Source: Luteibacter rhizovicinus | GTDB lineage: Bacteria > Pseudomonadota > Gammaproteobacteria > Xanthomonadales > Rhodanobacteraceae | Direction: 5' to 3' | Length of the DNA stretch: 64,000 bases | Assembly (NCBI RefSeq): GCF_004342265.1 | Contig: NZ_SMCS01000002.1 | Location: 620,001 to 684,000 of the forward strand | Program-made: the position numbers and the translations under genes | Notes under the pieces: generated by a model | Seen by the model: the letters and a program-made list of their open reading frames with translations, nothing else | Database searches by the model: none | What the model was told of the DNA's origin: nothing | Shown here: one piece after another, positions 60,055-63,928 of the stretch | Numbering within the stretch: position 1 is the stretch's first letter | How the letters are laid out: each line of letters opens with the position of its first letter

Positions 60055-62886
60055 TTAATGCGCCGGCTTGCCGTCGGCGTCGATGACCTGCACATCGCCG
60101 AGCTTCAGCGCGCGGACCGGCGCCTCGATCTTCTTGAGGTCGCCGACGATGACCCAGGTCAGCGCATCCGGCTTGATGACTTCGGCGATAGCCGCCTCGG
60201 CCGCCTTCTGGTCGACCCCTTCGATGCGCGACTTCAGCGTCTGGACGTAATCGTCCGGACGGTCGTAGATGACGATGCCGCCCATGGACGAAAGCACCGC
60301 GCTGGTCGTTTCGAAACTGCCGGGCAATGCACGGATACGCTGCGAACGGATCTTGCCGATCTCGTCCGCGGTGAGCGGCCGCGCACCGACGACGTCACGC
60401 GTCTCCTTGAGGATTTCCGCAGCGGACTCGGCGGTTTTGTCCGTCTGTACCGGTGCGTAGAACAGCATCGGACGCTGCCCCTTCGCATCGGAGAGCATGC
60501 TGCCCGCACCGTAAGCCCAGCGTTTTTCCTCGCGCAGATTCATGTTCAGCCGCGATGTGAACGTGCCGCCGAACGCCCCGTTGGCAATGCCGAGATCGAG
60601 TGCGTTCTTCGCCTTCGTGGACGGTGCGACGAGACCCGCCAGGATCAGCGACTGCGGTGCGTCGGTACGGTTGATGAGGAAGACGCGCGGCTTCGGTTGC
60701 GCGGCGACCTTGCCGATGTTTTTCTTGGGGATAGCCGAAGCGGGCGCCTTCCAGTCGCCGAACGCGGCATCGAGCTGAGGCAGGATCGCGGCAAGCGTCG
60801 TATCGCCCGCCACGAGAATCCGCACATTGTCCGGACGCAGGTAATCGCGCTGGAAGTTCGTCAGGTCCTGCGCGGCAAGCGAACGGATAGCCTCTTCGTT
60901 ACCGGTACCGGTGAACGGAATGCCATACGCGTGACCGGCGCCGTATAGCAGCGGCGGCAGAGCGCGCAATGCCAGGCTCGTGGGCTCGGTTTTTTCCTGC
61001 GCGATACCGGCCAGCCACAGACGACGGACGCGTTCGATGTCGTCGGCCTTGAAGGCGGGATTGCGCACGATGTCCGCGAACAGGTCGAGCGACGGCTTGA
61101 GGTCGCTGTTCAACGCGCTGAGTCCGGCGGAACAGGTATCGAGCGAGCAACTCGAACCGATCACCGCGCCGAGCCGCTCCTTGCGCCGCGTGACTTCGAC
61201 CGAATCCAGCGTGCGGGTGCTTTCGTCGATCAGCGCGGACGTGAAGCTCGCGGTACCCGACTTGCGTCCTTCGTCGGCGGCGTAGCCCGCATCGAACAGC
61301 AGCTGTATCTGGGTCACGGGGATCGTATGGCGCTCGGCCAGGACGACTTCGATGCCGTTCTTCAGTTTCCCGCGCTGAAGTGTGGGGAAGGACAGCGAGG
61401 GGAAGGTGTCGACGTTCGGCACGCCCTTGCTGCGATCGACCTGACTGGCCGCGACGGTGTACGCGTGCTTTGCGGGCAGCACGGCGACCGGACGTCCCGT
61501 AGCGGTGCCAAGACCGGCAACCGCTTTGTCTTCGGCATCCGGATCGAAGCCCTTACCTGCCGGCAGCACGGTAAGCGTGTAGTCGCCCTTCGTCAGCCAC
61601 GTCTGCGATGCCTTGCGGACGCTTGCGATCGTCGCGTCCTCGGAGCGCTGCAGATCCTTGCGGAAAGCGGCCGGATCGTCGCGATAAACCTGCCCGCTGG
61701 CCAGAAGCGCGGCCTTGCCGCTGACCTTCTCCAGCCCACGGACGAAACCGGCGCGATTGCTGACCTTGGCGCGATCGAGTTCGTCCTGGGTCGGGCCATC
61801 GGCGAGGAACTGCTTCCAGACATCGGCGACGGCGGCTTCCACCTTCGCCGGGTCCACGCCTTCCTTTACATCGACGCTGAGCTGGAACTGGCCGGCAAGC
61901 GCGAACGGCGCGATGGTGACCGACACGTCGTCGGCGAGCTGATCCTTGTAGACCAGACGCTGATAGAGGCGAGAGGTCTTGCCGCCGCCCAGCACGGTCG
62001 AGGCAAGGTCGAGCTGCGTAGCGTCGTCGGTACCAAGCTCCGGCACGACCCAGGTACGCAGGATGCGCGTCTGCGCGACCTGATCGTGCTGCGTGCCACG
62101 GGTGGATTTGGCGACCGGCGTGATCCACGCCTGCTGACGCGGCACGGGCGGACCGGCCGGAATGTCGCCGAAGTATTTCTCGGCCTTGGCTTTCGCCTGC
62201 GCGGCGGTGATGTCGCCGGCGAGGACCAGCGTGGTGTTCGCGGCGCCGTAGTAGTCATGGAACCACTTCTTCACGTCCGCGAGCGATGCCGCGTCCAGAT
62301 CGGTCATCGAACCGATCGTGTCGTGGTGGTACGGATGGTTCGCCGGATAGGTGTTGACGAGGATGTTCTCGTCCACGCGCCCGTAGGGGCGGTTTTCGCC
62401 CTGGCGCTTTTCGTTCTGGACAACGCCGCGCTGGGTATCCAGTTCCTTCTGCCCGATGGCGCCGAGCAGGTGGCCCATGCGATCCGATTCCATCCACAGC
62501 GCCATGTCCAGCGCCGTGGTGGGCACGGTCTCGTAGTAGTTCGTGCGGTCGAACCACGTCGTGCCGTTCATGTCCGTGGCGCCGGCCAGCTCGAACGGCT
62601 GGAAATAGGTGCCCTTGCGGTTTTCCGAACCGGAGAACATCAGGTGCTCGAACAGATGCGCGAAACCCGTTTTGCCGGCCGGTTCGTCGGCCGAGCCGAC
62701 GTGATACCAGATGCCGACGGCCACGACCGGCGCCTTGTGATCCTCGTGAACCACCACGGTCAGGCCGTTGGGCAACGTGAAGCGGGTGAAGGCGATATCC
62801 GGGATGGTGTCCGCCGGATTCGTGGCGGCGGCAGCGCCGACGAACGAAATCAGGCTGGCGGCGAGCAACGCGATCGGTTTCTTCAT
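60055..62886 (-). CDS. M16 family zinc metallopeptidase
   Basis: A 943-residue periplasmic or secreted peptidase of the pitrilysin (M16) family. A signal peptide covers MKKPIALLAASLISFVGAAA. The inverted zinc motif HLFEH is at residues 77-81 of the active N-terminal half; the second half (about 495-935) is the usual inactive partner domain. Two-domain length fits the M16B single-chain type. ATG 62886 has AAGGA seven bases upstream. It probably digests small peptides. Confidence 0.92.
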   Translation of the reverse strand: MKKPIALLAASLISFVGAAAATNPADTIPDIAFTRFTLPNGLTVVVHEDHKAPVVAVGIWYHVGSADEPAGKTGFAHLFEHLMFSGSENRKGTYFQPFELAGATDMNGTTWFDRTNYYETVPTTALDMALWMESDRMGHLLGAIGQKELDTQRGVVQNEKRQGENRPYGRVDENILVNTYPANHPYHHDTIGSMTDLDAASLADVKKWFHDYYGAANTTLVLAGDITAAQAKAKAEKYFGDIPAGPPVPRQQAWITPVAKSTRGTQHDQVAQTRILRTWVVPELGTDDATQLDLASTVLGGGKTSRLYQRLVYKDQLADDVSVTIAPFALAGQFQLSVDVKEGVDPAKVEAAVADVWKQFLADGPTQDELDRAKVSNRAGFVRGLEKVSGKAALLASGQVYRDDPAAFRKDLQRSEDATIASVRKASQTWLTKGDYTLTVLPAGKGFDPDAEDKAVAGLGTATGRPVAVLPAKHAYTVAASQVDRSKGVPNVDTFPSLSFPTLQRGKLKNGIEVVLAERHTIPVTQIQLLFDAGYAADEGRKSGTASFTSALIDESTRTLDSVEVTRRKERLGAVIGSSCSLDTCSAGLSALNSDLKPSLDLFADIVRNPAFKADDIERVRRLWLAGIAQEKTEPTSLALRALPPLLYGAGHAYGIPFTGTGNEEAIRSLAAQDLTNFQRDYLRPDNVRILVAGDTTLAAILPQLDAAFGDWKAPASAIPKKNIGKVAAQPKPRVFLINRTDAPQSLILAGLVAPSTKAKNALDLGIANGAFGGTFTSRLNMNLREEKRWAYGAGSMLSDAKGQRPMLFYAPVQTDKTAESAAEILKETRDVVGARPLTADEIGKIRSQRIRALPGSFETTSAVLSSMGGIVIYDRPDDYVQTLKSRIEGVDQKAAEAAIAEVIKPDALTWVIVGDLKKIEAPVRALKLGDVQVIDADGKPAH

Positions 62887-62999
62887 GCAGGTTTCCTTAC
62901 CGGCCGTCATGGCCGCATCCCATCGAGGCTAGCCCGTCGCCACAGCCGGGCGCAAATGCTCGAAGGAAGGGGTTGTCCGCTGTCCGATTGACCGCGAGC

Positions 63000-63015
63000 G
63001 GTGTCCGCGGACACC
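63000..63015. promoter_or_regulatory. Palindrome upstream of sigma-54 promoter (candidate enhancer site)
   Basis: GGTGTCCGCGGACACC is a perfect 16-bp palindrome, about 97 bases upstream of the predicted sigma-54 start. Two more TGTCCG half-sites lie at 62974-62979 and 62981-62986. This position and pattern fit an enhancer-binding protein. The activator is unknown. Confidence 0.6.
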
Positions 63016-63078
63016 GTCCGGCGCCGGGCCGATATGACAAACCTCATGCAAATCAGGTTATTGCGGGCTCTGACGAAG

Positions 63079-63094
63079 TGGCACGGCGTTTGCG
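63079..63094 (+). promoter_or_regulatory. Sigma-54 (RpoN) promoter
   Basis: TGGCACGGCGTTTGCG matches the sigma-54 -24/-12 consensus, with GG (63080-63081) and GC (63092-63093) separated by exactly ten bases. Transcription should begin near 63105, 47 bases before the small-gene ATG. No other match of this quality was noticed in the window. Confidence 0.8.
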
Positions 63095-63151
63095 TTACTA
63101 GTCATGCCGCAAAGGGCGGCTTCGTCGAAAACACGTCATAAGGACACGGTC

Positions 63152-63355
63152 ATGAAATACGAAATGCTGATGCTTCGCGGTCTCTTCGTTGCCTCGCTGC
63201 TCGTCTCTGGGCTGATCCTCGGCAACATGCTCATTTCCCCCAGCGCCGTCGTGCAGCTGGCCGCCAATGGCAGCACGGGTACGGCCGTCAGCGCCGCCAA
63301 GACCGGCTGCGCCGTTCCGCCGGATGGCCTCATCTGCCCGCGTCTGGATTCATAA
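63152..63355 (+). CDS. Small membrane/secreted protein under sigma-54 control
   Basis: A 67-residue protein with one hydrophobic segment (about residues 10-29: GLFVASLLVSGLILGNML) and a short tail holding two cysteines (TGCAVPP and LICPRLDS). It could be a signal-anchor protein or a secreted peptide with a disulfide. AAGGA lies seven bases before ATG 63152. It is preceded by the sigma-54 promoter and palindrome, and only seven bases separate it from trmL, which may be co-transcribed. I recognise no family. Confidence 0.65.
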   Translation: MKYEMLMLRGLFVASLLVSGLILGNMLISPSAVVQLAANGSTGTAVSAAKTGCAVPPDGLICPRLDS

Positions 63356-63362
63356 TGCGCGA

Positions 63363-63830
63363 ATGCTGAATGTCATCCTGTTCCGACCCGAAATACCGCC
63401 CAACACGGGCAACGTGATTCGCCTCTGCGCAAATACCGGTGCGGCATTGCACCTTGTGCGACCGCTTGGCTTCGAGCTGGACGACAGCCGCCTGCGCCGC
63501 GCCGGTCTGGATTACCACGAATACGCGAGCGTCGCGGTGCACGACGACCTCGAAACCTGTCTCGCCGCGCTGGAACAGCCCCGCGTATTCGCGTTCTCCA
63601 CGCGCGGCCGGACGGCCCATACGGACGCACGCTTTGCTCAGGGCGACGCCCTGCTGTTCGGCTGCGAAACGGCCGGTCTGCCCGACGCGGTGCTCGATGC
63701 GCTCCCCGAGACGCAACGCCTGCGCCTGCCGATGCGGCCGGGTAGCCGCAGCCTCAATCTATCCAACACCGTTGCCATTGCCGTTTTCGAGGCGTGGCGC
63801 CAGTTCGGCTTCGAGGGTGCGGCGGGCTAG
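63363..63830 (+). CDS. trmL: tRNA (cytidine(34)-2'-O)-methyltransferase
   Basis: A 155-residue SPOUT methyltransferase that 2'-O-methylates the wobble base of certain leucine tRNAs. The knot motifs NTGNVIRLCANTG, LFGCETAGLP and SRSLNLSNTVAIAVFEAW are intact. ATG 63363 gives the family start MLNVILFRPEIPPNTGN. The stop TAG is the last base triplet before the MITE at 63831, so the insertion sits exactly at the gene's end. Confidence 0.94.
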   Translation: MLNVILFRPEIPPNTGNVIRLCANTGAALHLVRPLGFELDDSRLRRAGLDYHEYASVAVHDDLETCLAALEQPRVFAFSTRGRTAHTDARFAQGDALLFGCETAGLPDAVLDALPETQRLRLPMRPGSRSLNLSNTVAIAVFEAWRQFGFEGAAG

Positions 63831-63889
63831 GGATGCTCTGAACAAGTTTACGTAGCGGTGACGTCTACGCAAACTTGTTCAGAGCATCC
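63831..63889. mobile_element. IS5-like MITE (59 bp)
   Basis: Perfect 19-bp terminal inverted repeats (GGATGCTCTGAACAAGTTT and complement) enclose a 21-bp core with its own inner repeat (CGTAG/CTACG). It is flanked by CTAG (63827-63830) and CTAA (63890-63893), which both fit the YTAR target of the IS5 group, one base apart from a perfect 4-bp duplication. It has no transposase. It may act as a transcription terminator for trmL. Confidence 0.7.
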
Positions 63890-63928
63890 CTAACCCATCG
63901 GGTACGGCGCCCACGCTACAATCGGGCG

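Follow-up and report, generated by a model that had tools for sequence, protein, structure and literature searches.

What a very small gene is doing behind an elaborate promoter is the question raised by one locus of Luteibacter rhizovicinus. In the 64,000-nucleotide stretch of contig NZ_SMCS01000002.1 analysed here (hereafter the window), an open reading frame (ORF) of 67 codons from an unnamed family (63152..63355, + strand) follows a perfect palindrome and a sigma-54 promoter. The initial annotation interpreted this arrangement as an enhancer-binding-protein regulon whose output is a small envelope peptide. We found the same switch in front of a MacB-type exporter and the two-component system encoded with it, and the small gene appears to be one of a set of clade-specific membrane microproteins that, on balance, probably tune this sigma-54-controlled exporter or its kinase.

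The elements of the switch were all present as first described. The palindrome is perfect over 16 bp, GGTGTCCGCGGACACC (63000..63015, with the core TGTCCGCGGACA at 63002-63013), is also found before exporter genes, and is accompanied by two extra TGTCCG half-sites starting at 62974 and 62981 (62974..62986, + strand). The promoter TGGCACGGCGTTTGCG (63079..63094, + strand) reads TGGCACG-GCGT-TTGCG, with the GG and GC of a sigma-54 promoter at -24 and -12 in a TGGCACRN4TTGC context, and its -12 element implies a start site that would lie about 97 bp downstream of the centre of the palindrome. Between them is an IHF-like site, AATCAGGTTATTG (63051..63063, + strand), recognised by the pattern WATCARNNNNTTR, which we take to be the IHF consensus. 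The rpoN gene was found in the genome from which the window comes. Each of the two motifs, palindrome and promoter pattern, has a single exact occurrence in the window; mismatched forms are no commoner there than in shuffled sequence (7 palindromes versus a mean of 5.65, and 4 promoter patterns versus 5.28). The exact joint pattern of palindrome and promoter occurs once in the window and in none of 150 simulated 64-kb windows.

Conservation in relatives, on which the initial annotation had staked its proposal, was borne out. The 30 best loci were all read. In each the palindrome matches at 11 or more of 12 positions and is accompanied by a -24/-12 element (threshold 10 of 12 positions), their starts being 77-81 bp apart; 25 of the 30 also have the IHF-like site, 37-39 bases beyond the palindrome. 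The exact joint pattern was found in 110 of 147 genomes of the family, and the reversed control in 0 of 147. A chance promoter or palindrome is ruled out by these counts together with the simulated windows, and because the site is conserved to this extent we regard it as real. For the sites elsewhere in the window's own genome, the starts of the HlyD operon and the outlying genera treated below, promoters were scored with a threshold of 9 of 12 positions, the GG and GC being obligatory.

The window's genome has 4 exact copies of the palindrome and 26 copies when up to one mismatch is allowed, and a -24/-12 element lies 55-79 bp downstream at 5 of the 26. One of these five is the window locus, before the 67-codon gene; another (C1:107878, where there is no trmL) precedes a 52-residue member of the same small-protein family. 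The third (C3) precedes an operon encoding an HlyD-type adaptor, an ATP-binding cassette (ABC) ATPase, four MacB/FtsX-type permeases, an NtrC-type response regulator and a histidine kinase, and the remaining two precede a TolC-type channel (C4) and a spare MacB/FtsX permease (C6). Across the family, 80 sites lead to the HlyD operon (25), permease pairs (17), small proteins (22), a TolC gene (7, about 0.9 kb downstream at six of them) and other genes (9). These sites were hand-picked among the sites listed, mostly in multi-site genomes and with most of the trmL-linked sites already read left out, so the proportions are not random-sample values. In 24 genomes of outlying genera, picked for having a site, the HlyD operon stands behind 22 of 28 sites, one of the 22 through a 27-residue match only. 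These arrangements suggest that the palindrome sites form one regulon comprising the microproteins, the exporter operon, the TolC-type channel, the permease and the two regulators. The kind of regulon first proposed is thereby retained; a small protein as its sole output is not, since the same site precedes the MacB-type exporter operon, the TolC-type channel, the permease and, within the exporter operon, the response regulator with its kinase.

Other genes were also observed behind palindrome-promoter units. Alpha/beta-hydrolase-like ORFs (L090, L114 and L152) and NTF2-like ORFs (L097 and L151), labelled by eye, are possible further members of the regulon. In four genomes from the genus g14 (L287, L290, L293 and L296), another unit stands before a predicted lipoprotein of about 490 residues, which had no match to the reference set and is shortened in one of its four copies. 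Behind the palindrome and promoter at one site (L107, G068:C1:1743200-1746400) lie an ORF resembling a transposase (by eye) and a fragment of a kinase, which looks like a decayed system.

A search for a sigma-54 activator with matching conserved sites, also suggested at the outset, led to the response regulator of the exporter operon. This protein has receiver, AAA+ and Fis-type helix-turn-helix (HTH) domains (Pfam PF00072, PF00158 and PF02954), and because it is encoded within the exporter operon, behind the same site as the other targets, it is very probably the missing activator; that it binds the TGTCCGCGGACA palindrome is highly likely. The start of the HlyD operon was readable at 25 of 101 loci, of which 13, counting the window's genome, come from Luteibacter or close to it; the other 76, lacking a usable HlyD start, were left out. 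All 25 have a sigma-54-like promoter and TGTCCG half-sites, and 19 have the perfect palindrome. The regulator is present in 139 of the 147 family genomes at E<=1e-100; among the matches listed, its orthologs share 65-100% identity, and whatever comes next falls to about 50% or below. A search of 121 genomes of the order at E<=1e-130 found it in 53, of which 35 are not members of the family. An HTH segment, GLSRQALYRR, is common to the 21 regulator loci listed, including the six without a perfect palindrome that are considered below. Two known identities were rejected: the regulator is not NtrC itself (344.2 against the TIGR01818 cut-off of 558.6, which another gene of the genome passes), and it does not belong to a PEP-CTERM/PrsR regulon (340.4 against the TIGR02915 cut-off of 502.6). 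At four regulator loci in the genera g42, g9 and g12 (L246, L253, L258 and L259), about four tandem permease pairs were observed at each.

The HlyD-type adaptor, ABC ATPase, MacB_PCD/FtsX permeases and TolC-family channel of the exporter all stand behind one kind of site. A Pfam scan covered three of the four operon permeases and the C6 permease, and the fourth operon permease was recognised by eye. In NCBIfam comparisons, for which the best 25 matches per protein were used, the adaptor passes the RND_mfp subfamily model and the channel a TolC-family model; the permeases score 152.6-187.9 against ADOP, whose cut-off is 622.3. MacAB proper was rejected (adaptor 53.4 against the MacA cut-off of 342; permeases 48.6, 49.2, 59.7 and 42.3 against the MacB cut-off of 966), as was the darobactin exporter DarBCD (258.7 against 375 for the ATPase, DarD; 82 against 450 for the adaptor, DarC; 34.2 against 700 for DarB). 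The likeness to MacAB-TolC, ADOP and DarBCD lies in the HlyD-type adaptor, separate ATPase, MacB_PCD and FtsX permeases and TolC-family channel, whereas several permeases per ATPase, a sigma-54 two-component system within the operon and added microproteins set the present system apart from MacAB-TolC and DarBCD. A second likeness is to BceRS-BceAB and BraRS-VraDEH, in which a MacB-superfamily transporter is coupled to a two-component system and, for VraDEH, a small membrane protein sits within the complex; the relevant papers describe Bce-type transporters acting with two-component systems (BceS-BceB) and VraH joining VraDE (PMC5985334, PMC5786555). In contrast to these, the system described here is Gram-negative, includes an adaptor and a TolC-type channel, and has an NtrC-type regulator working with sigma-54.

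The protein encoded at the window locus is, broadly as first noted, a predicted membrane protein with two cysteines, and it has no family match in Pfam or NCBIfam. AlphaFold (for the small protein, mean predicted local distance difference test score 65, predicted template modelling score 0.37) predicts a helix at residues 2-28 (63155..63235, + strand), which we read by eye as a membrane segment, the remainder being unreliable; the cysteines C53 and C62 delimit a C-x4-DG-x2-C motif (codons 53-62, 63308..63337, + strand). In 30 orthologs the ratio of nonsynonymous to synonymous substitution rates (dN/dS) is 0.30 for codons 1-28 (helix), 0.88 for codons 29-50 (linker) and 0.48 for codons 51-67 (C-terminus), and E4, L8, L11, A14, A37, C53, D58 and C62 are identical in all 30. 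The helix is constrained, the linker near-neutral and the gene under purifying selection. The cysteine pair is invariant in the trmL-linked copies. In 17 of the 30 loci a tandem ORF of 27 residues, corresponding to the helix alone, precedes the long gene; all 17 belong to the window's genus, which contributes 22 loci. Another 11 short paralogs that were aligned (46-58 residues) have no cysteine pair. Because the 27-residue copies consist of the helix alone and the short paralogs lack the cysteine pair, the helix is the common part of these proteins. We consider it likely that the microproteins are retained in the membrane. A lipoprotein was rejected, as the lipobox-like cysteines of relatives are serines in the window protein and sit inside the helix.

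The distribution of this family was determined by several searches. The 67-residue protein was first matched in 33 of 61 genomes at E<=0.01; two of these are the genome of the window itself and, from outside the family, one with a weak match confined to the tail (G048, E 0.004). A small protein is present in 83 of the 147 family genomes, many species having several matches per genome; nine were observed in a single genome of the window's genus (G003). A profile search of the class matched 1 of 369 genomes at E<=0.001, the window's own, in a sample containing only one other genome of the family. When the small protein was compared with the regulator at 77% identity or more in the 147 genomes, both were present in 81, the small protein only in 2, the regulator only in 2 and neither in 62.

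These observations can be arranged in a proposed mechanism. The histidine kinase would respond to a signal from the envelope, which might reach it by way of the membrane or the exporter, and phosphorylate the NtrC-type response regulator, which would then bind TGTCCGCGGACA; IHF would bend the DNA, and sigma-54 polymerase would start at the -24/-12 element. The resulting products would comprise both regulators (autoregulation), an exporter resembling MacA/MacB/TolC, with its HlyD-type adaptor, ATPase, several permeases of the MacB/FtsX kind and TolC-type channel, and one or more single-helix microproteins, 27-73 residues long. The microproteins would stay in the inner membrane with the N-terminus inside, and the conserved helix would bind a permease or the kinase, by which export would be tuned or a feedback loop closed. 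In the longer copies, the periplasmic C-x4-DG-x2-C loop may form a second contact, perhaps sensitive to redox state or a ligand. Since the microprotein stands behind the same conserved switch as the pump and the pump's sensor system, this suggests that it assists or regulates the pump and is not a stand-alone product. By analogy with Bce-type transporters with VraH and with MgrB, the microproteins may well act as modulators of the permeases or the kinase.

MgrB and AcrZ, a helper of AcrB, are examples of small proteins of the inner membrane that are linked to the system on which they act. A modulator of the MgrB or VraH kind would be membrane-embedded and co-regulated with its target; for the microproteins, a helix (residues 2-28 of the window protein) is predicted, and the palindrome site is shared with the exporter genes. 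Unlike MgrB and AcrZ, they have no family match (as scanned for the window protein), occur as several paralogs, include a helix-only form of 27 residues and are under putative sigma-54 control. A more speculative version, which we think unlikely, makes them interchangeable transmembrane subunits of a shared-ATPase exporter, each helix pairing with a particular MacB-type permease or with the kinase. If this were true, one regulon would assemble several pump variants, and the 27-residue copies would rank with the smallest subunits dedicated to a pump or a kinase.

A narrower version of the proposal, whose probability overlaps with that of the broader one, holds that the small proteins are feedback regulators of the kinase specifically, in the manner of MgrB and PhoQ, the pump being merely co-regulated. 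The precedent is MgrB, an inner-membrane peptide of 47 residues: it belongs to the PhoP regulon, represses the transcription that PhoP regulates and, judging by two-hybrid results, seems to make contact with PhoQ (PMC2789325). The periplasmic loop of the kinase is short (about 26 residues, by eye), and the regulator subtype is present in 81 of the 83 genomes with the small protein, both of which suit this idea; however, several small-protein matches per genome exceed the need of one loop, and 57 family genomes have the regulator with no small protein detected. A role confined to the kinase is conceivable, at perhaps the upper end of what we would call unlikely.

The main rival to tuning by the microproteins is that they are the cargo of the exporter: the helix would serve as a signal leading the protein to the periplasm, where the cysteine pair would be oxidised and the product expelled by the MacB-type pump, as with the enterotoxin STII. 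One paper reports that MacB-type pumps take up substrates from the periplasm and that STII is a MacAB-TolC cargo (PMC8277102). Export would also agree with the invariance of C53 and C62 in 30 of 30 orthologs, with paralog tails that vary behind a conserved N-terminus, and with the single regulon shared with the pump. Ordinary signal peptides, however, are not usually the most constrained part of a protein, and the helix is exactly that here (dN/dS 0.30). Moreover, the tandem 27-residue copies have no tail to export, which argues against a signal peptide or cargo, the 11 short paralogs lack the cysteine pair, and no clear signal-peptidase site was recognised by eye near the end of the helix. 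The cargo reading accounts for the cysteine pair and agrees with the MacB precedent, the 27-residue copies and the constrained helix speak against it, and we judge it improbable.

It is very improbable that a different enhancer-binding protein binds the palindrome and that the regulator of the exporter operon is just a target. The genome does contain seven strong matches to the sigma-54 activator domain, but the palindrome or half-sites stand before the regulator's own operon in all 25 readable loci, and the genes behind most of the sampled sites belong to the same kind of transporter. Of the other six matches, one passes the NtrC cut-off and one, a partial sequence, is closest to NorR; two more are presumably FleQ- and PilR-like. 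Least probable of all is that the unit mainly drives trmL under stress with the small ORF as a leader peptide: trmL is next in 30 of 30 loci, with a gap of 7 bases in 23, but the site and the small-protein family recur at C1:107878 in the window's genome without trmL, and the small ORF is under clear protein-level selection.

Returning to the tuning of the exporter or its kinase by membrane microproteins, several points weigh against this proposal or parts of it. The co-occurrence of the small protein and the regulator subtype is confounded by phylogeny; one genome (G068) has the small protein without the regulator at the threshold used, and 57 of the 64 family genomes in which no small protein was detected still have the regulator. 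The window's own genome has no 27-residue copy, and where such ORFs occur their constraint is milder than that of the helix in the long copies (proportions of nonsynonymous and synonymous differences 0.157 and 0.297, respectively). Constraint on the helix would also fit a targeting function. The kinase carries HAMP and PAS domains (Pfam), so its signal may be cytoplasmic. With respect to the activator, six loci (from the genera g5, g34 and g44) have the regulator and the promoter before HlyD with half-sites only and no perfect palindrome, one genome (G085) has both regulator and small protein without an exact site, and the six other strong activator matches in the window's genome (seven in all) count here as well. 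With respect to the regulon, the element that lies 96 bp downstream of a sixth site in the window's genome (L045) is weak (9 of 12), and genes not obviously belonging to a pump stand behind 9 of the 80 and 6 of the 28 sites.

The genes flanking the locus are conserved as neighbours. On one side is a divergent gene that we take, by eye, to encode an M16-type peptidase (60055..62886, - strand), and on the other, 7 bases after the small gene, is what we likewise take to be trmL (63363..63830, + strand); both are neighbours in all 30 loci, and the 7-base gap is kept in 23. From this gap, trmL is probably in one transcript with the 67-codon gene. The link to trmL, first thought possibly incidental, is perhaps not so in view of this conservation, and nothing was found that shows a functional link. 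Nothing at the 30 loci read points to the divergent peptidase gene as a member of the regulon. At the very end of trmL, an inverted repeat was observed (63830-63890) whose 20-base arms are identical; counted by eye, and with one mismatch, the arms reach about 26 bases around a loop of roughly 9. A terminator, a repetitive extragenic palindromic (REP)-like sequence and a miniature element are candidate identities for it, and no second copy with 3 or fewer mismatches was found within the window.

Part of this picture had been anticipated. A 2025 promoter-matrix survey reports, in its accessible portion, that sigma-54 promoters are enriched for COG0577 FtsX-like ABC antimicrobial-peptide permeases in gamma-Proteobacteria, Opitutia and Bacteroidia (PMC12316311). 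A candidate activator, a palindrome and a small protein are added here, none of which that portion gives for this system, and the terms 'Luteibacter', 'Rhodanobacter' and 'small protein' have no occurrence in the main text of the survey. In a Luteibacter co-culture transcriptome, 5 of 15 efflux genes and one kinase were up, according to an excerpt that does not identify the present system and in which HlyD and TolC do not occur (PMC9040847). Searches of the open-licence PubMed Central literature, judged mostly from their listings, showed no paper on this regulon, and the palindrome string was found in one unrelated human-gene paper only. The predicted link between sigma-54 and FtsX-like permeases was thus known, and what is new is a putative exporter regulon under a sigma-54 two-component system that includes a membrane-microprotein family of its own.

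What began as one promoter sighting now extends to a proposed regulon across the family, for which there are a candidate activator, a defined site and unnamed microproteins as short as 27 residues. If the regulon is as proposed, it would provide a concrete regulator and operator for the link between sigma-54 and antimicrobial-peptide permeases that the survey predicted (PMC12316311). Should the microproteins also turn out to tune a pump of the MacB type or its kinase, they could be set beside VraH and MgrB as their equivalent in Gram-negative bacteria.
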